Shown here: positions 7,413-36,143 of the stretch, in pieces
Position numbering within the stretch: the stretch's first letter is position 1
Layout of the letters: every line of letters begins with the position of its first letter
Assembly (NCBI GenBank): GCA_963971425.1
Contig: OZ020515.1
Span: 4,456,678-4,520,677 of the forward strand
Reading direction: 5' to 3'
DNA from: Bryoerythrophyllum caledonicum
Lineage: Eukaryota > Streptophyta > Bryopsida > Pottiales > Pottiaceae
DNA: 64,000 nt
Made by a program: the position numbers and the translations under genes
Notes under the pieces: generated by a model
What the model was told of the DNA's origin: nothing
Seen by the model: the letters and a program-made list of their open reading frames with translations, nothing else
Databases searched by the model: none

Positions 7413-10400
7413 TGTCAGCCAAATAAACCGCCCCTAAAGAATGGCTTATCTTGAATACAAGATCCTAATACGAGGGCCTAGTTCCTTGTGTAACCAATCC
7501 TCAGCCCATTCATACACAACTTATACAAGCATGGTGACACATCTCATGTTCACTTAGGTCCTTGTGGTTGATTAGTGAGGTGGTGACTTAATCCAGCCTT
7601 TTGATTGAACCCACCTTTGAACAAGTGTAACTTTTGTTCTAGGGCTCCGAATGCAACGTTTCCAACTCTTATGGGTTCAATTCAGCATTCCAAACTTGAT
7701 TAGACCCTTAATGATCAGTTTCAGGCTTAGGTGTGACCCTGGAACCAGTTGGCAGCAGACAGGCTTCCCTATTTTCTACAAACTTATAGTCCTAATTATC
7801 TCCTTGACTCTAACTCCGATTCTTATGTTTGTTTTTTTCATTCTTATTAGTTTTTTGTGCTTAACATGAGGGCAGCATTCAATCAACCATGCGACTCAAT
7901 CATGAACTCATAACCAACGACCAGCAGTGCACACTCAACATATAAGTTTATTCAAGATCGTGCACCACATTCCTACGCATATACCACATCCATTCACACA
8001 AGAATCCACTCCTGCCTTACTAAGAATGAACCTCCAGCTGCGTTCCCTTACTAATGGCGTTTTAATCGATTGTTTAGTTGAATATATAGCAAACCCTAAT
8101 TCTACCAAAAAATTGGCAGCGCTTCCACGTGGTTTTTGTATTTAGAAAATTAGGTTTCACGTCATACACAAGGAATTTAAGAGGTCCGAGGGAGAAGAGG
8201 GGCTCCCTGATTTAATTCGGTTCACCCTCCATCCTTCGCCTTCGAGCTACTCACTCCAGCTCTCATGACCTTGCTCCAGCTTGTGTGATCTTCGTCCTCT
8301 TGTTCGTCGTGTGATCTTGCTCCAGCTCGTGTGATCTTCTTCCTCCTGTTCGTCGTGCTTGCTCACTCTAGCTTGTATGATCTTCTTCCTTCTATTCGTC
8401 GTGCTTGCTCACTCCAGCTCGTGTGATTTTTTTCCTCCTGTAGGCCGTACTTGCTCACTCCAGCTCGTGTGATCTTCTTCCTCTTATTCGTCGTGTGATC
8501 TTGTTCCAGCTCGTGTGATCTTCTTCCTCCTGTTTGTCGTGCTTGCTCACTCCAGCTCGTGTGATCTTCTTCCTCTTGTTCGTTGTGTGATCTTGTTCCA
8601 GCTCGTGTGATCTTCTTCTTCCTGTTCGTCGTGCTTGCTCACTCCAGCTCGTGTAATCTTCTTCCTTTTGTTTGTCGTGCTTGCTTACTCCAGCTCGTGT
8701 GATCTTCTTCCTCCTATTCGTCGTGCTTGCTCACTCCAGCTCGTGTGATCTTCTTCCTCCTGTTCGTCGTGCTTGCTCACTCCAACTCGTGTGATCTTCT
8801 TCCTCATGTTCGTCGTGCTTGCTCACTCTAGCTTGTATGATCTTCTTCCTTCTATTCGTCGTGCTTGCTCACTCCAGCTCGTGTGATCTTTTTCCTCCTG
8901 TAGGCCGTACTTGCTCACTCCAGCTCGTGTGATCTTCTTCCTCTTGTTCGTCGTGTGATCTTGTTCCAGCTCGTGTGATCTTCTTCCTCCTATTTGTCGT
9001 GCTTGCTCACTCCAGCTCGTGTGATCTTTTTCCTCCTGTAGGCCGTACTTGCTCACTCCAGCTCGTGTGATCTTCTTCCTCTTGTTCGTCGTGTGATCTT
9101 GTTCCAGCTCGTGTGATCTTCTTCCTCCTGTTCGTCGTGCTTGCTCACTCCAGCTCGTGTAATCTTCTCCCTCTTGTTTGTCGTGCTTGCTTACTCCAGC
9201 TCGTGTGATCTTCTTCCTCCTATTCGTCGTGCTTGCTCACTCCAGCTCGTGTGATCTTTTTCCTCCTGTAGGCCGTACTTGCTCACTCCAGCTCGTGTGA
9301 TCTTCTTCCTCTTGTTCGTCGTGTGATCTTGTTCCAGCTCGTGTGATCTTCTTCCTCCTGTTCGTCGTGCTTGCTCACTCCAGCTCGTGTAATCTTCTTC
9401 CTCTTGTTTGTCGTGCTTGCTTACTCCAGCTCGTGTGATCTTCTTCCTTCTATTCGTCGTGCTTGCTCACTCCAGCTCGTGTGATCTTTTTCCTCCTATA
9501 GGCCGTACTTGCTCACTCCAGCTCGTGTGATCTTCTTCCTCCTGTTCGTTGAACCTAATCTCGTTCACCAGTTCGGGGCCGGGGCTTCCGGCTCTCTCCC
9601 CACACAAATTCAGTCTCTCTCCTGTTCTCTTTCTTCCAACTCCTTGCACACTAACCAAATGAGGCTTCTCTAGGGGGTAACCCCCCAACCTTTGCTCTCC
9701 TTGAGTTCCCAAAGAAGTTCCCTGCCGCCTTTGGCCTTCTTCCATAAATGGCTTCCTTCTTACAAAACCTACTAACCCTATAACTACTAATTTCGTGCCA
9801 CCCTTGCATTTAACAAGAGTGGGTGTCCCACTAACCAAGGAATATCTAAATCTAAACATTAACTCTATGCCACATGGGTGTGCATGATCTCAATAAGTGA
9901 GCTATTAGCTAATTTCCAAGGAGGCTAAATCTAATTTAATCTACCTAAATTGAATCCCCTTTGCTTGGGGTAATTCCTAATTTTACTTAGCGAGTGATGA
10001 GGGGGTTGTCCAAGCCTTTTGGACCTTTCCCACTATTTTTTTTTAAAGGCTTTTAAGCCTCTTCTTTTCTTTTCTTCCCTTCACCATCATTTCTCTTCTT
10101 CTTCCAATTTTTTGGTTTCGTGATTTCTTCATCGTGACCAATTGCGATCCACGACTTGGTAGGAGGTAAATTCTCCTCCATCACTATTAATTTTAATTTT
10201 TTTCTATTGTTTTTTGTCTTTTTTGTCTTTTTTTCATTTTTTCCTTTCTATTTATTGTTTTTGGCTAACTACCTAAATTCCGCGATTGCCAATAAGTGGT
10301 TCCTAGTTAAGGAATTAGCGCATGGAAGGCTATTTAGCTATTTTGATCAAAAGACCACGAGCTAACCAATGGGATAACTCATTTTCACCACTTATTAGCC

Positions 10401-14782: not shown

Positions 14783-15098
14783 TCACTCACAAGTTTCCGG
14801 TTCCTTGTTTGTGCTCATTTCGTGGAACACTACATTGAGCTCAGTAAGGGATGGGCTGTGGGTGGACACAATCTCACTTGACATGGTGGCATAGCGCACA
14901 TCTTGTGGGCCTTGGTTTTGGTTGCCACCGGGGTTTTGTCCTTGGTTTTGTTGGCCCCCTTGGCTTTGTCCTTGGTTAATAGGGATGTAACGGGCCTTGG
15001 TATTGATCCCTATTGGAGGGGTCTGATTTTGGCGATTATTGTTGTAGTCATAGTAGAGACTAGGAGGCCTAAGGGTATTATCGGAGGTGGGGTTACGT
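14783..15098 (-). pseudogene. gag: Gypsy element 1 gag, C-terminal part
   Basis: Encodes the Pro/Gln/Asn-rich end of gag (RNPTSDNTLRPPSLYYDYNN and a GQ-rich stretch), matching copy 3 at 57411-57680. It joins the segment at 30667-31263 once the MULE is removed. The reading frame runs across the left MULE end, so the first residues of the local open frame come from the transposon terminus. Confidence 0.85.
15090..15098. repeat. Left 9-bp target duplication GGGTTACGT
   Basis: The same nine bases occur at 30658-30666. The uninterrupted gypsy copy near 57670 has a single GGGTTACGC at this place. Nine bases is the size typical of Mutator-like elements. Confidence 0.93.
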
Positions 15099-15147
15099 GG
15101 GGGAATGCTATTTCGTGAGCGGAGAGCGGAGAGCGGAGAGCGGTGAG
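15099..15147 (+). repeat. Left terminal inverted repeat of MULE
   Basis: It starts GGGGGAATGCTATTTCGTGAGC and continues with GCGGAGA heptamers. Compared with the reverse complement of 30610-30657, about 41 of 49 positions match with one gap. Confidence 0.88.
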
Positions 15148-17086
15148 GAAAAAAAAGAGCAAATAATTCAGTACCATAGGACAACTTTTTGAATTGAAAG
15201 CCTTTATTATTGTGGATTTTTTTAGCAAATCCTATTAAAATGTATAAACATATTTTACTCCTGTTTTATTTAGAGATTAAGGGTGACGTCATTGTGATCA
15301 ACTTTATTGAACTGTGACGTCATCATCACAGCTACAAGGTCATGTATCAATTTCATGAACCATTTATGGTCACCACTACAAGGCTAAATGCCATGAAATA
15401 CAAATTTATAAATAATGAAGTTCATGGTGAGGAGTGAGGGAGTGACGCAATTAAAAAAGAAGAAAATAAAATGGAAGGGACAACCATAAAAGAGGCCCAG
15501 AACTAAAATGGCACATTAAGTAGTAGTGCTATGACTATAACTTTAACCCCTAAGGTACCATGACAATTTCACATCTAAACACTTCAAAATTGTTGGACTT
15601 TAGTGCAATGAATAAAGAAGCAAACATAAACTTTTATTTTTAGTTTTGACCATAGGATCGCAATTAAGCTTTACTATGTAGCATTCTCACAAAACTTCAT
15701 TAACTTTGACATCATGGATTGAAAGTTTATGGTGTTTGAAGTCAAAAATATTGGTTCATATTTTTCCCTCCATTGAGTGGATCAGCAAACATTGACTTCA
15801 CTTGGAATTCAATTTTTGCACTACACAAGGTCTAATTCTTTCACCATTATGTTTATCATGAATTTTGTTCCTTATATCCCAATTTTTAGAGGTAGAAAGT
15901 GAGTGTAGCATATTAAAAAAATTGTGCTAAGAGAAGAGGTTCAAAATTTGCCAATTTGTGTTTTTTTTATTGATAATTTAAATGATCAATAAGAAGGTTT
16001 TCACCACATATTATTGTTGAAAAAATAAAAGGTGAAAAATATGAAGATCTCTAGGTTTTACAGTTTAGGAAAGTTTTCCCACCCTTATGTTGAGTTTGGA
16101 TAGGGTTCCACGTTCTCAATTCTAGGCATTATTTTTTGAGATTTTTTATTGAATGACAACTTTTTAATAGCTTTGCATAGACACAACTTTCGTAAAAATC
16201 CATCTTACGATTCAAAAGATAAATTAATTTTCACTTACATATACAGACAGAGCAATAGTTTGGTCAATTCAACAGAAATTTGAGTTTTTTTCCATATAAT
16301 ATAAATAAAAAATCCTCTCGGAAAGGGAATGGAAATCTTTACATCTATCGTACAGATTTTTGAATTTGGAAAATATATGATATGATATGATATGATATGG
16401 AGAAGGATATGATATATGCAAGACTAAAAGTGCATTCTTGAATCACAACACATAGTTGCCTTGATGATTTCTAAGGACATCTTCAACCCTTCTACTACTT
16501 CTAAAATTTGGTGCGCATGTGCCTAACATGATCCTTTTGAGTTTTAAAAACTAAATTCACGGCCCATAGTGCAAAAAGTTGCCATAGAAGGGGTCGAAGT
16601 TTGTTGAATGTGTTTAGTATAACCACAAAAAAGAGTTTATGTCTCACTTTGAAGGCTAGTATCTTTCAATCCGTGCAGTCAAATGTACCAAAATTTTCAC
16701 CACCCACTTTTATACAACTGTAGTACAAGATCTTCCGGTTGAATTTACAAAAAAACCATTTTGTATCATTTTGTATCATTTTGTGTTGAATGTGCTGAAA
16801 ATGGCAGTTTTGGAGTGTTTTTGAGGGAAAATTGTGCTAGGCATTTCGGGGCTAAAGGATTAGATTAAATCTATAAACCATCATACTGATTTCGAGATTT
16901 TACTTGCCATGTGCCATCATGGGCAACAGTGTACATGACCCACTTGCTTCAAGTCTAAACTTGTGGATGCCAACATGTGTGATCCTATAATCAAGCCGCG
17001 GACTTGGCTGCCCTTGGGATGAGGTGACTAGTATAAGTTTGAGAACGTTTCTTTAAACTCAAGGTAAGGTTCTAACTCTGTACTAT
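15148..17086. other. AT-rich left arm of MULE, no gene seen
   Basis: About 1.9 kb of AT-rich sequence with no supported reading frame. It contains a short GATAT run near 16378-16400 and otherwise no tandem structure or recognised domain. Confidence 0.6.
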
Positions 17087-17750
17087 TTGCCTCATACTGG
17101 CTGGTTGATGCACGTCCGAGCTTCTCGCTCCTGCTGCAAGATTCACAGACTGTCGCACTTTCTTATCGCTCTCGCTCATTGCTCTCGTTCTCCCTTACGG
17201 CTCGCCCTTATCGCCCTCGCTCGTCACTTGCTCTTGCTCATTGCTCTCGCACATTGCTCCAGCTCTCCCTTACGGCCCTCCCTCCACGCCCTCGCTCGAG
17301 CTCTCCTTTACGGCTCTTCCTCCACGCCCTCGCTCGTCACTTGCTCTCGCTCATCGCTCTCTCGCGCATTTTTTCGCTCACCCTTACGGCTCTCCCTTAT
17401 CGCCCTCGCTCGTCAGAGCCTCTTATCCAAAGTGCAAACGAAGCACCAGCGCAGCAACCAACCTCCCCTCGGCCGCTGTCGTCGTTGCTGTCTTCTCCTA
17501 GCATTCGTCGCGCTCGCCATCGTAGACACTCGCCGCATCAGCAGCAAGAGCAGCTTCGTTGTGTGCATTCTCTCCCCATCGCCCTTGCCGCGTCCCTCTC
17601 ACGGAGGCGCCAGAAATTTCACTCCCGGAGCGGTTTGGACAGAGGAAGGAGGTCGAGTATTGCGGCAGGGGGAGCGTTTCTTGTGGCGGCGTCACTTTAG
17701 GTACGTCGCTTTAATTTTGGCATCGCTTTTGATTTCGCTTTTGTTTTGAG
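17087..17750. other. GC-rich, low-complexity captured leader-like segment
   Basis: Base composition shifts sharply from the AT-rich arm. The first half is made of imperfect CTCGCTCGTCACTTGCTCTC-type repeats; the open frames (up to 220 codons) are Ser/Leu/Arg-rich repeat translations. Lying just upstream of the SERK-like exons in the same orientation, it could be the promoter or 5' leader of the captured gene, since Pack-MULEs often take GC-rich 5' ends. That origin is inference. Confidence 0.4.
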
Positions 17751-18124
17751 GAGCGGCGGCGGGTGAGGGAGGGGCTACGGTTTGGTGTTTTTGAAGGTGC
17801 GATCTGGGTGTTTTTGATGATTTGCAGTTTACTCATCCTTGATTCTCAATAGAGGTTCGCCGCGGGAGTTCACTGGGCGCTGATTCCCGAGAGAGGACGA
17901 CCGCCGGAGGAGATGGAAACTTCAGGCGTCCGAAATCTCGGCAGCTAGCATCTCGAGAGACGGCCTGCTAGCATCTCGACAGACGGTCTTCTTCCCGAGG
18001 AACACTCACAGTTGGTAAGCAACTTTTTGTTTTTGTTTTGGCTTTTTCAGGAAAAGCCGATGAGTCTATGAAGGTCAGATTTCTAACACGCCGCTCGGAC
18101 ATTGTGTATTTCTGGGCAGTCGAT

Positions 18125-18430
18125 TGAACAACAACAGTTTGAGCGGTCCCATTCCTGTTTCTCTGACGGTCATTGAGGGACTGCAAGTGCTGTAAGTTCT
18201 GATTTTGAGCTTAAATTGTCTGAGATTTCAATATCCAAGAGCATGGTGTGGACCTTGCAAGCATTTGTTCTTGAATCCTGCATTTGATTAAAATTGTTTG
18301 GGTTTCAGGAGGACCCAGACGTACGTGGTTGCTCTGCCACTGTGGAGTGATCCGTTTGCAAGGATATGTCACAACAACTTATCCGGACAAGTTCCGACCA
18401 ACGGTTCGTTTTCACTGTTTACACCCTTCA
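18125..18430 (+). pseudogene. Captured SERK/BAK1-like LRR receptor kinase fragment
   Basis: Two exon pieces are visible. The first (about 18122-18192) reads RLNNNSLSGPIPVSLT and ends GLQVL at a GTAAGT-type donor. The second (about 18309-18430, after a TTTCAG acceptor) contains HNNLSGQVP then NGSFSLFTPF and ends at a CAG|GTACTT donor. These are hallmark strings of the last leucine-rich repeats of SERK co-receptors, and both exon ends fall where SERK genes have introns. No transmembrane or kinase part is present. Capture at the DNA level with introns retained is what Pack-MULEs do. The second exon has unrelated sequence at its start, so the fragment is decayed and is not expected to make a receptor. 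Confidence 0.8.
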
Positions 18431-18539
18431 GGTACTTCAATGTCCCTTTGACCGCTTCCAAGTTCTTATTAAATGATAGTAGTTATGTTGTGTACGCTGC
18501 TAACTTAAGATGTGCTCCAATGTAGCCTGGAGGGTTGAT

Positions 18540-19735
18540 GGGGTCTGGTTCAAGAGATTTGGCTCTCAAGTGTAAGCGCAAAGTCTAGGCACGGTCAGAC
18601 ATTAATCTACAGAGATGTGGCTTTATGTAGCATGCACTACACATCTTGAAGATGCATCTTTGAATTGAAGATTGTAAAAGTAAATTAAAATGATTTAATA
18701 TGTATTATATTTCAAATTCATTTCAATGTTTATAAAACAATGATACTCTCCTTCCCATTGACTCTTTCTACTCAGATAGAAAGAAATACCCGGTCCCACG
18801 GTGGTTGGTGGGCATTCCCTCGGATTTTTTGCACAATTGGCCACCTAGAAATCTCAACGCGCTGACGGTACCAACGCTGGGCACAGTGGTTAGTCTTCGG
18901 ACGAGGGGTGAAGGTCTGAGATTTCTAGAATGGTCGGTTGTTGCATATTTCCGGAGGTGGAGTTGAGTTGGTTCAAAACCAACACCGGTTTACTGGTGAC
19001 TGCAAAAAAATTATAAAAGAAAATGAAAAAATGCCTCTAAATTGAATAATTAAAAAACAATAGAAAGAAAAAATAAATGAAATTATTTGAAAATAAATAT
19101 ACTGAAAAATAATATAAAATAATTTAAAAACAAATTGAAAGAAAAAAAAAAACATTTTAAAAAACGAAAACAGCTTGATAATGATAAGGGAGGAATGATC
19201 CACGCCAAATTTTCAACTTTTTTTTACTCTAAAAGTGCACATTATGGTAAAATTGTGCCATTTCCGTCAATTTTACCTTATCTCCAACAGTTAATGATAT
19301 TTACCATTCTTATTTACAATTTGTGGGTTGAATGTCTATGTTTACCATTATCAATTTGAGGCTCTCACCATAACAAGAGATAAAGGAACCCATCATGGGT
19401 GACCCCCTGAGCACCATCTATTCATTCTCGGTCGAGGCCCTTTCAAAGATCCACCGAGGGTCCACCTATCATGGGCCTCATAAACTCTAAGCCCTCAAGG
19501 GTTTGCTCCAATCGTTTACCTCTTGTTACTGCAAGGTCACGGTGAGAGATCACCTCTCAATAAATGGAGGTCAAAGAAGCCCGTATTGGATGGACAAATG
19601 ATTGCCCCTTCCAAGCTTCTCGGTCCAAGGCCTGCTCCATATCTTTAGAACAAGAGAGTACTTCAAAAAGGTATATAGAATTTCTTGAATATCATGAACA
19701 CACAAATATATTGGTAGAGAAGGATTCAAAGAAAT
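18540..19735. other. Non-coding interval in MULE
   Basis: No gene is supported. Around 18845-18945 an inverted pair (CTAGAAATCTCA and TGAGATTTCTAG) flanks about 70 bases and could form a stem. 19000-19200 is very A-rich. Around 19420-19560, CTCGGTCGAGG and GGTCACGGTGAGAGATCACC resemble the palindromic repeats found in the right arm near 30290-30390. Confidence 0.5.
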
Positions 19736-22700
19736 CTAAAAATCCACTGTCGAGTCTAAAGAAGACTCCTTTCTGTTGTGTACTGCTTCAAGATCAAGTA
19801 GACTTAAAACAGCTGGATTGTAGCATTGGCGCTTGCTAAGTCTCTTTGGCGGTGGTGACATTGACGATGCGAACATGTTTGCCATTTGTTGTGCATACTC
19901 TGGCATAAATGCATATTCTGATACACTGCAATCTATTGATCTGCTGCGGACAATGAAAAAATATTTGAGCACTAATCTGGGAAAAGATATAAAAGCCGAA
20001 TGCCCATAAGTACAACCATTCTACTTACTCAATTGCGGCACGCTTGCGCTTTCCCTTATCCCTTGGTATGATGTCCTCTAGATCTTCCGCATCAAGTGCA
20101 ACCTGGGGAGGCGGTCCGGGCTGAGGTTCATCCGGTTCGGAGGAAGAGTCGGCATCCCCAGATGTAGTAGGTCGCGTGATCTTCAATGGGGATAGCATGG
20201 ATTCGAACACATCACTATCTGCCTCTAATGCCACAATATTTCTTCCGTATTCTTTGCACACCGTCACCGAATTCCCTGATAACAACTGTTGTTAGAAGCG
20301 TATCACAGAATACACACAACTTGCGTATAAATGCAAAACATACCAACATTTGCTGTCATGTCCACAACAAGGTTATCAGTGTCAATGGATGACAGGATCA
20401 ACGATGTCATAAAGTGACTACCGCGCTCCTTTGGTCCTCGCCACACCTTCCCGTCCGTTGTCTTCTGCCACTCTGGGGTGACAAAATTCCAGATTGTGTC
20501 ACCATCGCCAATGATGAGGCCGTGGTCCTTGAGTGCATTATGAACTCGAAAATGGAAGCTAGATTTTCTGCGTAATGATCCGGCTGTGTCGCGAACAATC
20601 AGGGCAATCTTGAAAAGTCCCGTTAGAGAATTGTCAATGGCCGAATAAGTGTACATGCGATTCACACCATGGAATTCTTTAAAAATCTTGAATCCAAGCT
20701 GTGGAAAATAGCTTGTGAACAGCTCTTTCGTGCTCCCGCCATTGTCGCTATAGATAAGGAACATCGCCCCGTCGTCATGTAGAAACTTGTTGGCAAAGGC
20801 AAACACATTCTTCAACCAAGTCGGGTCAAGGACGTTCCATGCTGGAGTTTTGTCGCATACACCCTTTACAGGTTTGTTGTCTGGGATCTCCGCAATAATC
20901 AGGTCCACTTTTGCCTCTTTATCAACATTCTTCCCTCCCCAAATGCACTTCTTCCCATTGTTACACTCCGCAGCATAATCAGCTATGGTCTGCCAAAGGC
21001 CACGGGAGATAGGAGCATTGATGATCAAGTTAGATATGAGACAAGCATTCCCAGGTGATGGCGCCACGGCCTGACTCGGGGTTGGGTCACGAAGAGAGGC
21101 TCCGGATAGTGTTGAATGTGCTTGCGATATCCCAACACCTGGAGACCGGGCCTGGCGACGGGGTTGAATGCGTCTAACAGGTGCAGAACGTTGAGACATC
21201 AACACGGTGTGCCTGCCCCCATCTCCTCCATCTTCATCGTCATTTGATTCAGCTTGTTGCATCACATCTTCGTTTACACCCAGGATCTCTCGCTCTTCGA
21301 GATTCTGAGTAGATTGGCCCTCCTCTGGAACAATAGAATGGGTCTCTTTGCTTGCTAGCTCGTCTTCATCATCATTGTCATCCTCAGAGGGCAACGGTGA
21401 CAGCCCCAACTCTTCTCTTCTTTTGGCCTCCTTGGCCCTCAGCTTGGATTTCTTGATCGCATCTCGCTTCTCCTTCGCTCGCTTATTCCTTGCTTGTTGC
21501 TTTGACTTCGGACTCAGTGGTTGAGGCTTCTTCTTCTTGGATTCGGCTTCCTTAGTGATTACTTCCACTGCCACATCTGGTCCAGATAGTGGTCCAAGCA
21601 TGTTCTTGTACTCCTGCTCTGTCTCATAGCAGTAGTTCTTGTTACACTCAACATACCACAGACACTCTCTCAGATGCTGAATTGAGAACACTTCCATCTG
21701 ATACGCCGTATACATACACGTATCAGAGGAGGGAGGATATGCAGAATTCATCCACCGTGGAACTCGAAGGATGGCCTTCACGTTAAACAAGACCTGACGA
21801 ATGTAGCGGTATATAAACCGCTTTGCCATATCCTGTCTCCCCGGCACTTCCTCCCACTTTGTCAGCCGGGTAAACTTTGTCTTGCCACCAAACACTGCTG
21901 GGAAGGCATGTGACCAAATCTGACATCTCCATGTCTCAAAGTAAATCTCCCAGGACTCATACTCGACATTGGGAACGATATCGAGCTCCCCCAGTATCTC
22001 ATCGATAGTCATTGCAATCTCCTCTTTCAGCTACACGCAAACACTGTCAGTGCTTCATGATAAATATATAAATCCCTAGAGTTTGATTTGGAGGTGGATG
22101 CTAACCTGAATCCAGAATACGGCTCGATCTAGATACGTCCGTAGTTGCGACTCAGAGCAAGGTTGTGGCCAGTGCTTTTCCTTCTGGTTAAAGCTCGAAC
22201 TATTCCATAGCTTTCGCCATTCAGTCTTGTACTGATTAGGCACATTCGTAGTGGCAATCAACTGAAGTTTATCCAATCCCATATCCACTTTTTTGATTGG
22301 GCGGGTGGACTAGTGTAGTCGAACCTAGCAAAAACCACAGAGAAAGAACATTGGATATCAAATTACGTCAAAACCACGATAAATAAAAACATTCCATTTG
22401 ACTAACTGAATGATGATTCAAACATAGTTACTCAAAATTGAAGAGATGAAACCAACCCATGAGACCCAGGAGGGCCACCAAAAGGCTCTCGGACCGAGAA
22501 CATAAAATAGGGTCGCACTCTTATACGGGAAACTATTCCAGGTAAGAAATGAAATAACCCCTTGGAGATGCCTGCTCAAGGCCTCGGACCGAGACTTGTT
22601 GCATGGCCTTCCGAGATTGAGGAATGCTTAGTTCAAGAGAAAAATTTCAACCATGGAGGGCGTTTTTCATTGTCCACGATCCAGGAGGCTTCTAACCATC

Positions 22701-25698
22701 CTCTATTTTAAGTAAATCGTAACCTTTTGGTACCGAGAGGTTTTAATGTGACTCCCGAATGACCACATGATCTAAATACATCTTGAAAAAACGAACCGCT
22801 GGAGGGCTTGATTTTTGTTCTTGGTCCGAGGACCTTTTCACTGCCCTCCGAGAGGTCCTATATTGGTCCGCACATGATATAATTAAAGGTGAGAAAACGT
22901 AACGCTGGAGGGGGATGTTCACTGTCCTCGGACCGAGAGCCTTTACACCACCCTCCGAGATGTCACACCGCAGACCTCAAATGATATAAATACAAGGTGA
23001 GAAAACGTAACGCCGGAGGGGGATGTTCACTGTCCTCGGACCGAGAGCCTTTACACCACCCTCCGAGATGTTACACCGTAGACCTCAAATGATATAAATA
23101 CAAGGTGAGAAAACGTAACGCCGGAGGGGGATGTTCACTGTCCTCAGACCGAGAGCCTTTACACCACCCTCCAAGATGTCACACCATTGTCTACACAAGA
23201 TATAATTTCTAGGTGTCAATGTGCTTTGCTAAAAGGGCCAGAATTTTGTTCTTGGTTTGAGGATAACCAATGTGGTCCTCTAGGGTGTAATGTCTTGGTC
23301 CTCAACAAAATGCATTGTAACAATGAATCAATGACAAAATCAAATTCAGCTTGTACCTGATCTAGAAAATCCTTCCCCAACCGTGGATCGGCAACTGCGG
23401 AGAGCTTGCTGAGCCGTTTGATCAATTTCGACTTCTTCACAGCCATTGCTTCTTCCACCTTTGACCTTAGCTCTACACCGGTTCCTTTGCCATTCATTCT
23501 AAACTCGATGCGTTCAGTTGACGCTACCTCTTGTAATTCATCCTGTATTTCTGCGTATCAGCCTCTCAATGAAAACTAAATTGTGACAACCTCTTAATAT
23601 CGTTGTGGTAGTTTACTTACATGAAATAGAATCTTCACCAATTGATTTGACGGAATTGGATACCAGGTATCTCTTTTGAGCCTGAGACACTTGCTGTAGA
23701 CCTTCTCCGGTATCAAATCCTTGAAGTACGTTATGTCGCGTTGACCAAAAATACTCACTCTGTCTAACTCATGCATCGTGTTCGTCTTCACATGTGCTTT
23801 CTCTGTAGCCCTGTTTTGAAGTTCAAGCACGATGGTTAGAATTTGGGAAGAGAGAATTCAAAACCACACACTTACAACATACTTATTCACCGCGTCCATT
23901 GCTTTCAGAATCTTTGGAAAGCCGCCTGGCGTGATGTTGAGCATGATGGTCTCGGGCTGGCCATTGCTGCGTGTAAAAAACAAATCGCCACTCCTTTTTT
24001 CATCGATGAACGACTTCCAAGCATCATGACGGTGGTTGCCATCGTAGATGAAGAACATTTTGCCGCTCAAATCACCTAGATCAGGGTCATCCTTCAGCTT
24101 CGCTTCGAACTCCTTGTTCACCGACTTCCAATTTGGCGACCACTGATCCTCTATCTCACTTGACACTTCCATCTTTTCTCCATCCTTCCCTGTTAATGCA
24201 ACATAGAAGACAGATGTGCCTAATCGATATCCATGCTCAAAACTATCCTGCAAGTTGAACTTGTCAGCCAATTGGACACCACGAAGTTCTGGCATTGGCA
24301 CCATGCGACATAGGGGCACGCGCAGTCTTGAAAACTTCTCCTGTGGCTGTTGGCGCATCAGAGTGATGGCGGCAAAGGAGTCCGGGTTGTAGAGCACCCC
24401 ATCCGCTTCTCAATCTCCGCAACATCTATTTCAGCCTCCGTGCCCAAGTTCTCCTCTTCCTCTTCCTCTTCCTCTTCCTCTTCTCTTTCTCGAACCGCCT
24501 TACGTCTCTTCCTCTTCTTTGTCTCTGCTGTGCCGACTACATCTTGTTGCAAACCGAGGGTAACCATGGCCAAAGCAGCTACTGCGGTGCCATTCACACT
24601 GTCGGCTATGGCGTCTCTCACTTTGTCACGCTCAGGGCCATTGGCATCTCCGTCGGTCACCTCTCTCTCGACGTCGATGTTTGCCGCTACTTCCTCCATA
24701 TGAATGTCTTCTGCCATGGCCGCCTCTTGCCTGGGCTCCCATTCACCGTCCTCCTCTCTCTTGTCACCATCAGGTTGCGCCATCGCTGCTATGGCCACCT
24801 CTTGCGGCTTGCTGACCTGCTCTACCATAGCCACCTCTTGGATCAGCCCTCTCACACAGCCCTCACACACTTGCCCTCTCACAAACCTCCCCTCTTCCTA
24901 ATCTCCCCACTCACAGACCTCCTCTCTCCCCTGTCACAGACCTCCCCTCTACCCAATCTCCCCCCTCACAGACCTCTCCTCTCCCCAATCTCCCCTCTCA
25001 CAGACCTCCCCTCTCCCCAATCTCCCCTCTCACTCACCTCCCCTTTTGACCTAAACCCTAAATCTAATATTTCTAAATCCATAGTGGGGACACATTATAT
25101 ATCACCTGGTTATTTTATATGTATCACCCAGATCTAATATGAATGTCCAACTGGTATTGCATGGGTATTACCTACTTCAAATTTTAAAGATGATAGAAAG
25201 TCCATGTCGTATACTAATTATATACAAAACTGACCATAGAGTGCGGTACCACTCTAGATCTAGATCTAGATCTTGGCCAACTAAACATCTATCATTGAAG
25301 TACGGTCCATTACGAGTACCAATTCTCAGGCCTTCTTTGAACAATGACTCAGTGCACACAAGTATTCCACTCGGTGATATTGATGACCGCTTTTCATGAG
25401 TTGGGTAACATACCTGAGTCTCTTCCACGCGGATTAGGTCGATCACCATTGTCGGCTCAATAGTAACATCTGCTACCATTGAAGTGCCTGTCACGTCTAA
25501 GGGAGTGATATCCATTGTTTCTTGCACATCTGCTTCGGCAATGGGGGCTACGCTTCTTACCGTTGTGGTAACCGGTAACTTAGCAAACTCCCCTCCTAGC
25601 CGTCGCTTCGTAGCACCTATGTCCACCGCCCTCATCGCCTTCTCCATCTCCTTCCGCCGTCGTCGTGTAATTGCACCTCCCTCTGCGTGTGTATCCAT
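19736..25698 (-). CDS. ParB-like plus permuted DNA methyltransferase-like protein (MULE cargo)
   Basis: Proposed exons on the minus strand: 25698-25414, about 24882-24398, about 24397-23876, about 23811-23621, 23542-23357, 22309-22106, 22030-20344, 20275-about 20028 and about 19957-19736. Most splice sites are GT-AG; 20344/20275 join in phase. Exon 2 has a basic cluster KKRKRRK and an acidic run. Exon 3 carries the ParB/sulfiredoxin-like core FIYDGNHRHDAWKSF. Exon 7 holds a Lys/Glu-rich linker, then VDLIIAEIPDN in the place of methyltransferase motif IV (D/N/S-PP-Y). The exon 7/8 junction encodes NLVVDMTANVG and GRNIVALEAD, matching the late motif I (DPFxGSGTT...GRxxxGxE) of permuted N6-adenine/N4-cytosine methyltransferases. 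The missing DPPY argues against normal catalysis. Exons 2 and 3 are in different frames near 24397, which suggests a frameshift. Function is inferred from motifs only. Confidence 0.72.
22880..23205. repeat. ~108-bp tandem repeat with CTCGGACCGAG palindrome, intronic
   Basis: Three units start near 22887, 22996 and 23103 (GGTGAGAAAACGTAACGC). Each contains CCTCGGACCGAGAG, or a one-base variant in the third unit. Isolated copies of the palindrome occur upstream at 22488-22500 and 22582-22594. All lie in the intron between the exons starting at 22309 and ending at 23357 of the ParB-methyltransferase gene. Confidence 0.85.
24880..25050. repeat. CT-rich ~30-bp tandem repeat
   Basis: About five units of CTCACAGACCTCCCCTCT plus CCCCAATCTCC fill the gap between the first two exons of the minus-strand gene. 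It is probably intronic; a clear acceptor for exon 2 was not identified within it. Confidence 0.75.
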
Positions 25699-26283
25699 AT
25701 ATGCTGAATGAAAGTTCTGCTCATCGTGCCAATCATTTATACCCTGCTCAAAAAATTAGGGCTATTTGCAATTTCCTTCATGTTCTACCTATGTTCCCTT
25801 CATAATGTCTTGGCACGTACGGGTTAATATCATCTGTCCTTATTAAGGCCGCCAACAATTTCCTATCTTGAAATAGAGATATGTGTTGTACTCTTTGAAG
25901 TCCATTATTTGTTCTTGGATATTATTGAAGGGTTCTATTTCAAACATAGTTGTATTCTTTACAAAACAAACACTTGCGCCGACTTCATTATCCTTCTTAA
26001 AGCAAGACTCGCCAAATGTGACACTGACTCGAGACAGCTGGCTCTCAAATAATGGAAGAGTACAGCTGCCCTAAGTTCACTCGGTGGTTAGCTACAGCTG
26101 TTGCATCTAATCTTGAATTCAATTCAAATTATTTTTTAGAACGTCTACTCTAAGCAGTGACAAACGCCGTCTTCTGGACCAAACCCCTTTTTAAATCCTT
26201 TGACTATTATGTATAATTCTTGCCCCGCTCCATATTTATACACTTTCTTCAGTTTGGTCTACCGTTCTTGTCTTGATTTTCCC
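25699..26283. promoter_or_regulatory. Divergent promoter region of MULE genes
   Basis: This 585-bp gap separates two head-to-head genes. On the minus strand a TATAAAT box lies at about 25741-25735, roughly 40 bases before the ATG at 25698. On the plus strand CATATTTATAC at 26231-26241 precedes the ATG at 26284 by about 45 bases. The arrangement would couple transcription of transposase and cargo. Promoter activity is inferred from position and motif only. Confidence 0.5.
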
Positions 26284-29200
26284 ATGGCTCCCGCTACTCC
26301 ATCTAGCTTGTCTTCGATGGCTATACTTCGTACTACTGGTAGTGGCGATCCCGTTGCCTATCCTTTGAATGAGGAGGGTATTGCCACTGTCACTAGTGCC
26401 GCATTGAGTGTTAGATTTAGTTTTCATCAGGAAAGTATTTGTGTCGAGGAGGAGGTTTATGACGATGATTGCTTGTCTCTGCTGTATACTACACCTAGTC
26501 AGGCAGTTGTGAACAATGATTTTTACAAGGAATGGAAACTTCGCAAGGGTCGATATAGGGTATATGGTCGCGTAGATTTAGATATCACTCCGTCATCCAT
26601 TGACCTTACCCCTCGTCAGTCCACGACATGTAGCATGCAGATACCTCCTCCAGCTCTCCTGAAGGTCAAGATTGAGCCAGGCACCGAATCTGTCACTATT
26701 CTCTCTTCAGATGATGAGGACACTATCCCTAGTACATGCCCCCCAAAGTTAACTGATCTCATGTCGTGTCATCGTCATTCTGTTTCGTCTATTCCGACTA
26801 CTTCCTATCCACCCAATTCTTGTCCTCCAAAAGATCAAAGTATTTCTGGAATTGTCAGTGTTATTGAGAGTCTCAAGCGGTTGTCCACCCGTGTTGGCGG
26901 CAAGAATCCACTGAAGAAACTGAACTTTGATGTCATTCCACACCAACATGTGAGCTGTCTCCCTGCCGATTTCAACAACAACGTGGTCTTCGAACTGCCT
27001 CCTGTTCGACCGTCGGCTTCTTCCACCCAGGCACGTAATATGCATGGGATGGACAAGCGATACGATTGACACGTCTGGACGAAGACGATCACGTCAAACA
27101 TCATGAACGACGATGGCCTCCACTTTCGGACTTCCAAGTGCGTTGGTCATTTGCAATGCGACAACGTTGATTGCGAATACCTCCAACGAGTTAATCGATT
27201 ATCGGACGTGAATGAGAGGGAGTTCAATGGAATGACGTCAGTGTCATTAGAGGTAGGTCAAATAGCCCCTAAGAACACGCTACTCTGCAAGATCTGCGGA
27301 GATCCTCCGGTGTGTGTTGCCACATGTGATGCTATGGTGTACTACGTTAGTGGTAAGCAAAACTGCACCCGTGCTTGTATTCACTTAGGTGTACATAAAC
27401 ATCCTGTTAAGATAGGTGATTACCGTGATGTTAAGGAGAAGATCAGTAGTCTTATTAGTGAGCAGGTAGAGAAAACTCCACAGGCAACCAAGAGTGCCGT
27501 TGTGTTGGAAGCGAGCAAGGAGCTGCTTGGAGATTTCCTGCTTCGGGAAGATGGCGACCCTCGAAAGACCTTGACTGTCGAGGAGCTAGCTCCCTTGTTA
27601 GACAAATGCAAAGACATGGGATCTCCTAGCATCCGAAACAAGGTGGTCACATTCCGGTATCTAAAGAGGTACGGTGTCATGGATGCCATCTTAAAATTGC
27701 GCTCGGTAAGTTCCTGGGCGTTTGTGCAGAATAGCAAGTTCCCAAGTCAAGGTTCAGAGACAGCTGTGGGAGAAGAATCCAAGGTCTTTGTCTTTAAGAT
27801 GTCAGAGGTTGGCTCGGGCTCTGGCGTCGATCTTGTGAAGCGGATGCAACCGGGCAATGACTTGGATAATGCATGGATGATGTTCGACCACGTACAACGC
27901 TTGGCGGAGTGGACAACAATGGGATGTCATGTTTACGACGCAACGTACCGGAGGGTGATGACCATCGCATGCTGCGACTTGATGTCTGAGGATAAAGACG
28001 CACAAATTCTTTTCTGGAATAACTTGAATGACGTCATGCGTCGACACGGTGTGGAGAAGCCGGATTTTAAGGGATTTATGGCGGATGGTGCTCAGGCAAA
28101 CTGGAATGCAGTAAGAGCTGTATACGGAGGTGGCAAAGTCATGACGGACAAGGAGCGAACATGCCTTTTCCACTGGGTACAAAGTATGGTTAAGTACACG
28201 GAGAAGTGGATCGCCGAAGAATTTCAGGAGCAGCATAAGAGACTCTGTAAGCAGTATAGGGAAGCTACGGACATGGAGAATGCCGATAGACTATACGATG
28301 CGCTTCAAGTGTGGTACAGGATATCTGGAGTTGTATTTGAGAAAGGTTTTGAGGCCATGTCTAGTTGGCTTGTATGGTGGCACTTCAGATATCGCCAATG
28401 GGGTGGATTCATGACCAAGGTATGACATATGCTTCTTCATTTCTGTACGTTATACAATGAGTCATTTTCTTCCTTCATCTTTGGTTTCTTACTCATCGTT
28501 GCTTTATTGTAGAACATGTCCGCCGATGAACTAGCCGAGATGCCTTCTTGCAATCTAGCAGAGACAGTGCATAACAAGTGGAAGCAAGCCTCTGGAAACC
28601 GAGGGGTAGACTTATACGTCGCCACCGTAGACGACTATGTACGCGGATCCCTCCAAGTTGTTAACTATCACCAATTTTTAAAAGGCGACGTTGGTGGGAC
28701 GAGTCCTAGCAAGGATGAACTAAAGCTTAGAGTGGCCGAGAGAAAGGCTCAAAGGACGGGTGACCCTAGCGTCTTAAAGGACTCTATGTTGCAAATGCCG
28801 GGGGCGGCGGAATTCTGTACTCGCACAACAAACAAGGCTGGTGAAGAGGTATTTGGCTCACGGAAGCGTAAGCCAAACATGCCTGTCGGTGCTGATGATG
28901 AGTCACACCGACCGGATAAAGTAAACTTCTCTCGACCTCGCCATACTTCCAGACCACTAGGTACTTCTACAAATCCTTTGCCCATTATTGACGAAGGCAA
29001 CGGTGTTGCTGATGACGAGGATGTCGTTGGCGGATATAGCGTTTTTGATGATGATGTGTCTCCCACGCGACCAAGACCTGTAACACCGTTGGCGTCTCCA
29101 GTCTTCAGAGCTAGTTTGCGTCGCGTCACATCGGTGCAAGAAACTCATGTTCAGTTGACAGAGTGGCATATTGCACGTTTGCCGAAGAATTCTGCGAAGG

Positions 29201-30027
29201 CTTGTTGGGCACAACGCTCGATATCAAAGAAGAAATTTGAGGAGAAGATTGTCAAGGGTAGGAAGGCAACTCCGGCACCAACATACACTGGTTTTTATCG
29301 TCACCCAAAGAAAAATGTCTTAGAGACAATGGATTTCTACTTTTGCAACGATGACATTGAACGGTGTGTGAAGGGTACGAGGCGGCTATGGGTAGTTCAA
29401 TACAAAAAGGGCCAGGATAGGCCTCCAATCCCGGATGTATGGCCTGTCATGGTGGGTACTAATCTGACCCGTGGCGAGATTGAGGATCTTGAAGCAGCTG
29501 GATTTCAACTCCCGCAAAAGCAGCAAGTTTCTCCTAGACGCCTATTTACTAACGACAGACCTCCGAGAGACTTGAGTTCTATCCCAGTACCATCGGACGC
29601 GTCTAGAGTTCCGGCAAAGAGGGATGGTAAGGCGGTGAAGCGCACCTCAAAAGTGCGTAACGAGAAACAAAGGAAGTCCATGGGGTCTGTTGATTCCCTC
29701 ATTGCTTCTATCAAAGCTGTGAGGATGCTCCCAGGACCCGGTTTAGGGTGTCACATTTCTCTCCTCTCTTACGGTGCTCAGCCCGAAGCTACTACATACT
29801 CCGTAACAGTGAGTGCATTTCCTCATTGTTCGTGCCCAGCATTCACGAAGACTTGGAAGGCATTCCGTGGGAAGAGCCAATACTCTCATTGTAAACATCT
29901 CTACTACATCCTTCTCACGATTTGTGGATTTCAACCAACTGTTGACTTCATCCATGCTTCTACCCTTAGTTGGAACGAGGTCAAACAAGTTCTTGAACAC
30001 GGCATTCTAACTCATTCTTGGTCTTAG
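26284..30027 (+). CDS. MULE transposase with GCM/FLYWCH-like and SWIM fingers
   Basis: ATG 26284 (CCATGG context) is preferred over the upstream frame start at 26200 because a TATA-like box lies between them. Exon 1 is 26284-28419 and exon 2 is 28513-30027, joined in phase. Order: a N-terminal region with VKIEPG and VTILSSDDED; a FRTSKCVGHLQC segment with further Cys, resembling GCM/FLYWCH zinc-binding domains; the DDE core with VYDATY (first Asp), FMADGAQAN (second Asp) and CLFHW (the C2H signature); LAETVHNKWK with the probable catalytic Glu just after the intron; and a C-terminal SWIM finger (HCSCPAF ... HCKH). An in-frame TGA at 27067-27069 probably arose from CGA and would split this copy's protein, leaving a 27103-30027 product that keeps the core. 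Mutator membership fits the 9-bp target duplication. Confidence 0.82.
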
Positions 30028-30289
30028 TCCAGTTCCTTAGTGTTTATCCTATAGTCAACCTACATAAACCCTTTTTATTTGTTCTAGAGCAAGTGTTCAA
30101 ATTTAATTATGTATAGATTTTCATGGAGGCCTCCCATATATAAATATATTCCTTCTATTAAAAGATGTTCTTTGATTGGTTATACGGTAAAATCTCTAGG
30201 CGCCAAGATGTCTCGATAAATTTTCATGGTACAGAAGGTCACTGTAAAACCTTTCTGGTACCAAAAGGTCACCGAATAACCTCGTGTTA

Positions 30290-30395
30290 CGAAGAGGTCA
30301 CAGTGAAACCTCTCGGTACCGAGAGGTCACGGTGAGACCTCTCGGTACCGAGAGGTCACGGTGAAACCTCTCGGTACCAAAAGGTCACAGTATAA
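30290..30395. repeat. Tandem palindromes CTCTCGGTACCGAGAG
   Basis: Two perfect CTCTCGGTACCGAGAG palindromes, each followed by GTCACGGTGA, plus degenerate flanking units from about 30225, lie 260 bp inside the right MULE end. Related sequence occurs near 19430-19560 and 22729. Candidate subterminal transposase-binding repeats. Confidence 0.8.
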
Positions 30396-30609
30396 TCCAA
30401 TATGTATTTCAAGTTTTTCAAAAAGAGACCACAATTACCGTAATTAGGACCGCGGTATGAGGTTCCAAAATTGCCATAAACATAGTCAGAATAATTAAAT
30501 TCCATTAAATATATATGTTATTCTATAATTATTCTAATAATATTTGAATCTTTATCGAATAAACCAAGAATATTAGAATATTTTTGGCTCTCCATGGCTG
30601 AAATCTCTG

Positions 30610-30657
30610 CTCACCGCTCTCCGCTCTCCGCTCTTAGCTCATGAACAAGCCTCCCTC
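30610..30657 (-). repeat. Right terminal inverted repeat of MULE
   Basis: Its reverse complement begins GAGGGAGGCTTGTTCATGAGC and continues with GCGGAGA heptamers as at the left end. The element stops at 30657 directly before the GGGTTACGT duplication. Confidence 0.88.
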
Positions 30658-30666
30658 GGGTTACGT
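30658..30666. repeat. Right 9-bp target duplication GGGTTACGT
   Basis: Exact copy of 15090-15098. The gypsy gag sequence resumes directly after it with GCACCTTTCAAATGG, which matches 57678 onward. Confidence 0.93.
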
Positions 30667-31926: not shown

Positions 31927-34900
31927 ATGCCGCGTCAGAATTCTGTATGGGATCTATGGTACGAAGAGATGGGCAATGCTCCTTCAAGAGCAGCATGACA
32001 AGTGAAGTGTCGGTTGTGTTCTCACTCTATGGTTTATAGAGCCGATAGGATGTTGTCGCATATGGGGTACCGTCATCCTAGTAATCTAGGTCGTGACGTC
32101 TAATTGTGTAGGATGGTGCCTCCACATGTGCGTTTGTTGTTTCAAAGTTGTGATGGGATTGTTCCTTATCGTCGTGATGCTGCCAACGATGTACCATGTT
32201 CCCAACAACGTGTTGATGACGAGAATGGGATTGGAGTGGAACACTTATTGACACAATCCGTGGTGGACGACCTGGAGCAGATTCAGAACTCCCAAACAAG
32301 TCGTGGCGTGGAATCCGTACACTTAGATAGGGAACCTCGAGAGCTATGTCAAGCGACCTTGCCTGAGGGCTTCAATATTTCCAAAAGGCAACTCTTGGAC
32401 AAGGCTTGGTCTAGTGCTTTCTATGAAGCAAACATTCCATTCAATATCATTAGGCACCTTGCTTTTGTAAAAGCCGTTCAGGAAACTGCACGCGCACGAA
32501 TGCCCGCCTACCATCCACCGACCTACAATGCCGTACGTACGAAGTTGTTGACAAACAAAAAAATTGATGTACAAACGGCTGTCAATGTAGCCATGGGTAA
32601 TGCTATATCAAAGTATGGCGTTACAATATGTAGTGATGGCTGGGACAACGTTCAGAACCGACCTTTGCTAAAAATTGTTCAGTCATGCACAAAAGGGGAT
32701 GTTTTCATAGGCACCATCGATACATCGGGAAATTATAAAGACCACTTTTATGTTGCTTCTCAAATCCGACCGTTTCTGCGAATGGTTGGACATGCAAATG
32801 TTGTCCAAGTATGCACGGACAATGCTCCAGTCATGGCGGTCGCATGTCGTGACATCATGCAAGAAATTCCACATCTCTATGTTCAAGGATGCGTTGTGCA
32901 TTGCTTGGATCTTTTACTGGAAGATTGGGGCAAAGAAGCGTGGGTACAAAGGATTGTTAAGAAGGCAAGGGTTGTTTGTTTATTCATCAACAACCACCAT
33001 GCCCCACAAGCAATCTTTCGAAGGTTATCACCCGATCTTTCTATTCGTTTGCCCAATGAGACACGGTTTGCAACAAACTATCTCACGATACAACGCCTCC
33101 TCCAAGTTCGCCAGGCATTGGAGCAAATGGTGGTTGATGAGGACTGGCATGCTTTTCTAGCGGTATTGCGGACTCAAAATACAAGGGCACATGCAAAAGG
33201 CCTTTATGCACGACGCGTTATACGTTCGGATGGATTTTGGGATGTTTGTGTGAATTTTGAGTACATGGTGTTGCCGGTGGTACGTGCTCTTCGTGTGTTT
33301 GACGGCAGTGTTCCGCTATGTGTCATGCATGGAAGCTCATGCATGAATTGGGGATCCATGTTCAAGGATTCCGCAATGCCCCGTTCTGCTTGGAACAAGA
33401 TTTGGCAACAAGGGCATTAGATGCCTTTAATGCAAGATGGAGGCTCATGATTACTGACCTTCATTGGGCGGGGGCTATGTTGAATCCTTCTTTGCGTGGA
33501 TGGGTCCCGTTGCACGAGCACGAGCTTGCGAGACCAATCTTGAATGGTGTTCTTCGGAACCTAGTTACGAGGGAGGATGATCTAGGTTTGGTCCTCAATC
33601 AGTACCAAGATTTCATTGAGAACAGAGGGACATTTGCAGATTCCATGCAAGCAAATGTCTTGAATTTACCGCCCCATGAATGGTGGGATGCCATGGGAGG
33701 CGGGGCAAAGCAATTGCAGATTATAGCAAGACGCATCCTTGCTCAAGTATGTTCTGCTTCGGCATGCGAACGCAATTGGAGCATGTACTCTTATGTTCAC
33801 AACAAATCCCGCAATCGCCTACAACATAGTCGGGCGGAGGACCTCGTTTACATTTACACCAATTCTAGGCTCCTTAGGCATCGAAGAGGAACGAGGGTTG
33901 CTCAATGGCTTGAGTTGAATGGCGTGCATTCCAATGATGAAAGCAATGGGGATGATTCTGATGATGCCAATGATGATGGCCATCATGTCGATCATGATGG
34001 ACTTGGTGATTTTGACATGGACGTTGGTACTTTTGATTCGGACAATGAAGATTCAGATGGTGACGGTGGTGAAGGTCACCGTGATGGGGATAACAGTTCG
34101 GATTATGACGGTCTTCACTTTGATGGTGATCGTAGAACTGGAGATATTGGTGTTTTTGAGTTTATCGAAGGTGAAGAACCACAACATGTTCAATTGCCAT
34201 CTAACCTTCGCGGGGATGATGATGGGCCGTCATTTGGACAACTTTGTGCAGGACAAGGACTCTGGCGTGAACAAGAAGGGGGCATTCACGACCAAGCCGT
34301 CCACGCAAACGTTGACTTGCCATCCCAGCCTGAAAGTGATTCGTTATCATTTGGTGGGGAAAGGCAACATATCTCGGATCACAGGGATGAGGAGGCCACT
34401 ACACCGGCGTGTGATACGTCTCTTGTGCCATCAAGGGTGGTTTGCAATGGCAACTCCAATCTGCCATGTACTACGACTTCAAATGTTCAAGGGTTATCCA
34501 CGCCTATTGAAGAGGGTGTAGTGAATGTGTCAACCACAGAGGTTGATGTACCTCCCCAAGTTGGAATACAAAATCGGCGGATCACCCGTAGTCATGTAGT
34601 TGCGGGGAGATTCGGTGGAGCGACCACACGGGGGGTCGGTGCTTCATTGGTAGCACTTCAAAACAATCGTCCAAACATTGGACAAGGACAAAATCGTCGG
34701 CAATCCATTTGGTCGAATACTGTTCATAGTCCAACCGTTCGAAGGCAACCTCTCACTCCAGCAAGTGAGCGAGGTCATTCTATACGCAGGGGTGGAAGGG
34801 TTCTTGTAACAAGTGGAAGAGGGATAGTTTCGTCCTTAGATGTAGACATCAATGCAATTGTTGATGTAGGTACAGCACTTCCACATTGCGGGGAGGCTTC

Positions 34901-35204
34901 TACAAGCACCGCAAGTGCTAGTGGTCGACGAAGGACTACACGAGGGAGGAAGAGACGTCGAAGGAATCAAGGAATACTAATGCCATTTGTCGGTGAAGCT
35001 TACGACCCATCTGACGGAAGACCCAATATGGATGACAATGGAATACGTGACATCGGCGGCTCTCGTCCAACAAGGAGGTTGATTATTGGTCGAGACGATA
35101 ACTTGCAATTGAGAAGTGCTACTCCACAATCCGACGATGAAGAGAGCACAGATGAATCTGATGTGGATCCACGGTGCATAGAAGAAAATGACCCAACAGT
35201 TTGA
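31927..35204 (+). pseudogene. BED/hAT transposase (DUF659 type), disabled
   Basis: Starting at ATG 31927, the frame encodes a BED zinc finger (KCRLC ... HMGYRH) interrupted by TGA 31996-31998 and TAA 32101-32103, both explicable as C-to-T changes of CGA and CAA. The following open stretch carries the DUF659-like core: SDGWDNVQNRPLL, VCTDNAPVM, then VVHCLDLLLED. A frameshift near 33305-33325 moves the frame; the continuation ends the core and contains the hAT dimerisation region (ILAQVCSASACERNWS ... NRLQHSRAEDLVYI). A long Asp-rich region and a basic RRTTRGRKRRRR tail follow. With two stops and one frameshift this copy cannot make full-length transposase. Confidence 0.85.
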
Positions 35205-35751: not shown

Positions 35752-36143
35752 GGGGAGGGAGGAAATGTTTCTTGCACACCTTCCCGCGAATCCTGGACGC
35801 CCTGACGCACTTGCCTCCACGTTGACGGCGGTGTGCGGGGTTTTCAGCGTGGGAAAGTGGTCCTTTTGAGGACGGAGATTACCGAAAAGGGAAATTTTTA
35901 GTCCTCAAAAGCATCAGCACAGGTTCAGAAGCTGTTGAAGTTGTCGGAGGTTTAAAGAAGCCGTGTATTTGATACTTTTTAACAATCTCTCATCAGCACT
36001 ATTTTGAAGTGCTTGCATGGGATTAATTGTAGCACTATTTTGAAGTGCAATTAGTTATAGGCGGCATAATCATATTAAAATAGTTAGCTAGTACTAGAAT
36101 AGCAATTAGAAGTACTTCGTAGTGGTTTAGGGTTGTTTAAAGC

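Follow-up and report, generated by a model that had tools for sequence, protein, structure and literature searches.

A Mutator-type transposon of a moss carries a predicted ParB-methyltransferase gene with a changed catalytic motif

INTRODUCTION

In the brown alga Ectocarpus, the 21.5-kb DNA transposon Sola1-1_Ec32 carries, opposite its transposase, a gene for a protein of 1104 amino acids (aa) that combines ParB with an N4/N6-methyltransferase (Genome Biology 2025, PMC12477816). The available part of that paper, in which the name Pack-MULE also occurs, cites similar ParB-methyltransferase proteins in transposons of red and green algae, predicts that the Sola1 methyltransferase makes N4-methylcytosine (4mC) or N6-methyladenine (6mA), and suggests that the element's own DNA is marked in this way. 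Fusions of a ParB fold with an N6_N4-methyltransferase are also described as frequent in phages (PMC12704722). Here, we describe a gene of this kind in a plant. Within a stretch of 64,000 nucleotides from the moss Bryoerythrophyllum caledonicum (assembly GCA_963971425.1, contig OZ020515.1, positions 4,456,678 to 4,520,677), hereafter the window, an element at 15099-30657 carries a transposase gene and, divergent from it, a predicted ParB-methyltransferase (ParB-MTase) gene. All coordinates below are those of the window.

Because of the Sola1 precedent (PMC12477816) and the phage fusions (PMC12704722), as far as the available text of both papers describes them, we place the moss element, from its sequence, as a plant, Mutator-type member of the described ParB-methyltransferase accessory class with a changed catalytic motif. 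As described, Sola1-1_Ec32 is likewise a large DNA transposon in which an accessory gene opposite the transposase joins ParB-like and N4/N6-type methyltransferase parts in one protein. The two differ in transposase (Sola1 versus Mutator-type), in host (brown alga versus plant), and in the length of the protein (1104 versus about 1,320 residues), and, in a comparison made by description only, a methyltransferase predicted to make 4mC or 6mA contrasts with a moss protein that lacks the catalytic motif. The first-pass annotation of this locus knew of no described plant MULE with this cargo; in view of the Ectocarpus element, complete novelty is not supported. In the literature that we searched, no plant MULE (Mutator-like element) with a ParB-MTase cargo was found; coverage was partial, with most subscription papers outside it, and we do not claim absence.

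Two further groups of plant elements bear on the comparison. MULEs are described as duplicating 8-11 bp of target sequence, and SWIM fingers are listed for many of their groups (available part of PMC6446971). VANDAL elements are Mutator-type plant elements with accessory genes and with tandem repeats of short motifs in their non-coding DNA, and VANC21 localizes to the non-coding regions of VANDAL21 that are enriched in such repeats (available part of PMC10398659).

RESULTS

The element is a single insertion. The element occupies 15,559 bp (15099-30657) and interrupts a Ty3/gypsy gag as a single insertion, as a comparison with the empty site in a sister copy of that gag in the same window shows. 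Specifically, the flanks of the element are the two halves of a gag, and when they are joined without the element they align with the sister copy (58079-57520, minus strand) at 94% (526/561 columns), in an alignment that crosses the insertion point with a single copy of GGGTTACGT. Identical copies of this 9-mer stand directly outside both ends of the element (15090-15098 and 30658-30666); by our own arithmetic, the chance of a 9-mer being common to two fixed places is about 4e-6. The exact 9-bp duplication and the element boundaries, first proposed from the letters alone, are in this way confirmed. The termini are inverted, as had also been proposed: the left terminal inverted repeat (15102-15147, plus strand) pairs with the right one (30610-30655, minus strand) over 46 nt composed of 7-bp GAGCGGA units, with 39/46 columns matching. 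A nested element or an assembly chimera is ruled out by the empty site, which brackets the entire 15.6 kb, and by the internal inverted pair (22719-22752/30355-30388), which cuts through intron 4 of the ParB-MTase gene. The copy is not intact: the transposase is interrupted by one in-frame stop, and the reading frame of the ParB exon shifts once. Neither blastn nor tblastn of four open reading frames (ORFs) found further copies of the element in the window (E<=1e-3, positive control included), and no Rfam family of structured RNA reaches its gathering score there.

The transposase is Mutator-type by anatomy. It is encoded by two plus-strand exons (26284-28419 and 28513-30027; about 1,216 codons). 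The ORF at 27070-28422 is matched by 291 database proteins at E<=0.01, and we aligned the window with 33 of these (34 rows). Among the columns of this alignment with little or no variation are the D of HVYD, that of FMAD, and the CxxH pair; the codons of the first and second D were read at 27937-27939 and 28084-28086, and the C2H pair was placed at 28162-28173, this place and the end of exon 1 being counted by hand. The in-frame stop codon (27067-27069) falls at a site where 33/33 aligned homologues are open. In exon 2, the E of MPSCNLAETVHN (28561-28563) and a C-terminal, SWIM-type CxC..CxH finger (29827-29898) are kept in the only second exon compared, which is 39% identical. The D-D-C2H-E order was assigned by pattern, and we take these to be the catalytic residues. 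These observations bear out the earlier description of a plus-strand transposase with a DDE/C2H core and a SWIM finger. The second exon used for comparison comes from a 4.1-kb contig (L001, 1-4101) that bears a transposase relative and is filed as uncultured Synechococcales. This contig, the only match of its search, ends before any partner gene would be visible and is a probable eukaryotic contamination of the Synechococcales assembly.

No curated profile names this transposase. A Pfam scan of the 34 members (E<=5) returned 14 families; none of these is a transposase family, and no family occurred in more than two members. Nor did Pfam give a transposase family for the second-exon ORF of the window or for that of L001. 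The transposase had no match in the PDB, and its queries had none among viral contigs. The Mutator-type label is therefore one of anatomy and not of profile: it rests on the 9-bp target-site duplication with its empty-site paralogue, the terminal inverted repeats, the DDE/C2H core, and the SWIM finger (the E and the CxC..CxH being compared with L001 only), all in agreement with the features given in the available part of PMC6446971.

A predicted gene opposite the transposase. A splice model for the minus strand gives the ParB-MTase gene eight coding exons with about 1,320 codons, divergent from the transposase, and all seven modelled introns are GT..AG. The first-pass annotation had the divergent orientation right; its nine exons become eight coding ones, with an extra non-coding exon possible. 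Exon 1 (25414-25698) has a candidate start ATG at 25698 and is separated from the transposase start by 585 bp (25699-26283), presumably a shared promoter. Exon 2 (23883-24834) encodes an acidic N-terminal part and the ParB-like core, with PLCRM..PMPELR at 24281-24316 and DGNHRH at 24026-24043 (counted by hand); its frame changes near 24400, where a database homologue (P0122) stays in one frame. After exons 3 (23621-23810), 4 (23357-23542), and 5 (22106-22309), exon 6 (20344-22030) encodes a linker and the first part of the methyltransferase domain. The EIPDN of its motif IV position lies at 20876-20890 (counted by hand), and the 3' end of this exon holds the start of motif I. The rest of motif I, with GRNIVALEAD, is in exon 7 (20029-20275), and exon 8 (19736-19943) includes the stop codon. 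All of these exons are on the minus strand.

The ParB-like part has a conserved core. At E<=1, ten database proteins are homologous to the ParB exon (E 1e-55 to 3e-19), with identities of 32-60% in the alignment. Across the window and these ten, PLCRM and DGN occur in 11/11 rows and DGNHR in 10/11, the exception being P0122, such that the ParB-like core recognized earlier holds up as conserved. We read PLCRM and DGNHR as ParB boxes I and II (DGxHR), a reading of sequence for which profile support is weak. The PHROG family 'ParB-like partition protein' matches 4/11 members (best E 0.05). DUF1015, which we take to be a ParB relative, matches three of the ten homologues, and DndB matches one, both weakly (E 0.03-0.26). 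DndB has been described as ParB-like (available part of PMC12704722). In hhalign against 14 phage ParB cores, DGNHRH falls in register with the ParB box (P 0.01, versus 0.4 and 0.66 for reversed controls), in an alignment of only 14 columns with a probability of 4%. A match of the ParB profile to eL24 in the PDB (E 0.012) was set aside as chance.

The methyltransferase-like part is permuted and changed. Cut out at 268 aa, the domain has a match to Pfam N6_N4_Mtase of 24.1 bits (E=4e-5), and the longer protein of 1082 aa has one of 18.6 bits (E=0.0019), both under the 26.7-bit cut-off. In PHROG, four families with methyltransferase names match the domain (E 0.0012-0.12), alongside two others not so named. 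A search of 5.8 billion proteins, with 1,381 candidates, yielded one relative of this part at E<=1 (P0001), which is 43% identical to exon 6 over 249 aligned columns. Together, the window and P0001 are collinear with the methyltransferase halves of the ParB-methyltransferase fusions of phages EJ-1 and Javan25 (L003, L004) over 201 columns, at an hhalign E of 3e-4 and a probability of only 39%; reversed controls gave E 0.67 and unrelated profile pairs gave E 0.2 and 0.38. Javan447 was left out of this set, as the methylase is divided between two genes in its record. The moss protein resembles the phage fusions in having ParB N-terminal and the methyltransferase C-terminal and in its permuted order, motif IV before motif I, which upholds the earlier call of a permuted methyltransferase-like domain. 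The methyltransferase query also had ten PDB matches, with a glycine transporter at the top, which we regard as chance.

The differences from the phage fusions lie in a long middle stretch, in the introns, and above all in the motifs. The phages keep DPPYN and a glycine-rich motif I, whereas at the position of the phage IDLYVTDPPYN the window has VDLIIAEIPDN and P0001 has VDLIITEIPDN. EIPDN thus stands in place of the catalytic [DNS]PP[YFW] in 2/2 known sequences, and because these are diverged (43% identical), it is not damage to a single copy. Motif I retains one of its two glycines in both (DMTANVG in the window, DVKASTG in P0001). The acid after motif I, which presumably binds ribose, is retained (LEAD/LEED versus the phage IELD or MELD). 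We provisionally regard the domain, as judged from these two sequences, as non-catalytic or changed.

Repeats and apparently captured DNA in the element. Intron 4 of the ParB-MTase gene (22310-23356) contains a 108-bp tandem array with CTCGGACCGAG dyads (22874-23185) and two more such dyads at 22488 and 22583. A 29-bp tandem array with CTCGGTACCGAG palindromes (30228-30392) adjoins the right terminal inverted repeat. The pattern CTCGG(N0-2)CCGAG is present at six places within the element, a count that is inflated by tandem-array duplication and stands for fewer than six independent events, and at none in the remaining 48.4 kb of the window. Four of the six are in intron 4 (two of them within the 108-bp array) and two are in the 29-bp array. 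In 300 order-2 Markov copies of the element, the mean was 0.02 and the maximum 1. These dyads are candidate binding sites, either for the transposase or for the ParB-like protein.

The element also contains what appears to be an exon remnant of a SERK-type leucine-rich repeat (LRR) receptor kinase, followed by a GTAAGT donor (18120-18191, plus strand). Its alignment to SERK1 covers 24/25 residues in a single stretch (E=1.6e-8), and it matches 59 PDB sequences at E<=0.01, with LRR receptor kinases as well as other LRR proteins, for example TMM, among them. Since repeat-rich LRR proteins such as GSO1 give lower E-values than SERK1, 'SERK-type' denotes the best single-stretch fit rather than proof. 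The element looks to have taken up host-like gene DNA, which fits a plant host. A second piece, translated NNLSGQVPTNGSFSLFTPF, lies nearby at about 18371-18430.

DISCUSSION

We tentatively favor reading this locus as a slightly decayed, single-insertion, Mutator-type plant transposon whose ParB-MTase product is an element-specific DNA-binding accessory factor, similar in role to VANC. We infer the accessory role, and DNA binding by the protein is our conjecture. Under this scenario, a protein of about 1,320 residues would combine a core resembling ParB with an amino-methyltransferase domain of permuted order. The arrays of palindromic repeats in the element itself would be the loading sites of the ParB-like part, with the methyltransferase fold serving as a DNA- or S-adenosylmethionine-binding module. 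Both parts may then keep the non-coding control regions open against host silencing, as VANC does for VANDAL elements, or alternatively may help to assemble the transposition complex. The likeness to VANDAL elements has its limits: the available part of PMC10398659 does not describe VANC as a ParB or a methyltransferase, and anti-silencing by the moss protein is conjecture. A more specific version, in which a phage-type ParB-methyltransferase has turned into a non-catalytic, self-addressed DNA clamp with its ParB-like part on the CTCGG-CCGAG arrays and its dead methyltransferase fold occupying or reading DNA against silencing, strikes us as unlikely.

Several results weigh against an accessory factor of this type. 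Both hhalign comparisons with phage proteins have the low probabilities given above. For the ParB-like part, the window row is absent from the rows reported for the PHROG ParB family, one member matches a PHROG head-protein family at a better E (0.0094), and the scan that gave DUF1015 and DndB gave similar E-values (0.025-0.22) for Pfam families that are unrelated. Furthermore, Pfam gave no ParB match on the ParB exon of the window, NCBIfam gave no ParB family on the 11 rows, and a PDB profile search with the ParB alignment returned no ParB chain. For the methyltransferase part, exon 6 alone matches Pfam N6_N4_Mtase only at E=0.33, and P0001 has no Pfam methyltransferase match. The dyad pattern was picked after the repeats had been seen, and perfect palindromes with 9-nt arms are not confined to the element, which has 6 rows of them (a TCTAGA run accounts for two) against 4 in the rest of the window. 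Finally, all of this comes from one element only.

It is conceivable that the protein is instead an active amino-methyltransferase that marks the element's own DNA with 4mC or 6mA. This would agree with the methyltransferase motif order and the retained acid after motif I, and with what has been suggested for the ParB-MTase proteins of algal transposons in the available part of PMC12477816. Yet, self-methylation is doubtful because EIPDN replaces [DNS]PP[YFW] in both known sequences, which are from plants, and motif I keeps a single glycine in each. In the bdelloid N4CMT, a change from SPPY to APPA abolished activity (available part of PMC8885841). The self-marking by methylation that the first-pass annotation had envisaged is accordingly not supported by the motifs. 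A second alternative, which we consider about as doubtful, is that the gene is a passenger, captured from the host or from a foreign source, that plays no part in transposition. Pack-MULEs capture gene pieces; they lack a transposase of their own, and the moss element differs in keeping its transposase gene, though interrupted by a stop. The receptor-kinase remnant suggests that the moss element likewise captured a gene piece, and the numbers of homologues are uneven: 291 for the transposase (E<=0.01), 10 for the ParB exon, and 1 for the methyltransferase part (both E<=1). The gene may thus be absent from many relatives, with the reservation that neither the words nor the candidate lengths nor the cut-off were uniform across these searches. 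Set against this, the gene as modelled has about 1,320 codons, a single lesion, and seven canonical introns, quite unlike the receptor-kinase remnant, a short piece in a non-coding stretch, and its homologues retain the same core. Moreover, the same domain pair stands opposite the transposase in another superfamily (Sola1, as described in PMC12477816).

It could also be argued that the MULE label is wrong and that this transposase is of some non-Mutator superfamily of DNA transposons. The lack of any Pfam transposase family in the 34 members and in the two second-exon ORFs, along with the empty PDB search, speaks for this. We nevertheless judge it quite improbable given the 9-bp target-site duplication, the inverted termini, the D-D-C2H-E order (which we assigned by pattern), and the C-terminal SWIM-type finger. 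The duplications of 8-11 bp and the SWIM fingers reported for MULEs (available part of PMC6446971) agree with what the element has.

The first-pass annotation had also proposed that the cargo was acquired from a prokaryote or phage lineage. Part of this stands, in that the methyltransferase domain resembles the phage fusions (hhalign E=3e-4, probability 39%). A recent transfer from phages is not supported: ParB queries had no match among phages and viral contigs, exon 6 had none among viral contigs, and the methyltransferase domain had only weak matches among phages (36 records at E<=10, best E 0.2). Among the 20 of these 36 matches that were listed, two phages have annotated DNA methylases at the matching place (E 0.4 and 2). 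An old prokaryote or phage source would still be compatible with these results.

Whichever role the gene has, our findings extend ParB-methyltransferase transposon genes from algae and Sola1 to a plant Mutator-type element, which suggests that genes of this class recur as accessories in different transposon superfamilies. With the catalytic motif changed, it can be asked directly whether such proteins write a mark or bind DNA. Binding to the element's own repeats, if true, would represent a means of evading silencing that is new for plant transposons. A non-catalytic clamp would, if real, give plants a second VANC-like system against silencing, one that evolved independently and is made of prokaryotic parts.

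OTHER FEATURES OF THE WINDOW

A short way to the right of the Mutator-type element, two frames that overlap in the region 32104-35204 (plus strand) together encode a hAT transposase (DUF659 E=1.5e-32, Dimer_Tnp_hAT E=4e-11), and this region is probably a frame-broken hAT element. It is followed at 36141-37913 (plus strand) by an ORF of 590 aa with a RING-like finger (zf-RING_2 E=1.8e-5, 25.4 bits, under the 27.3 cut-off). A 46-bp minisatellite of about 28 copies occupies 8274-9549, and tandem repeats of 185 bp are present at 51447-52087 (3.5 copies) and at 61702-64000 (12.4 copies), where they reach the end of the window.

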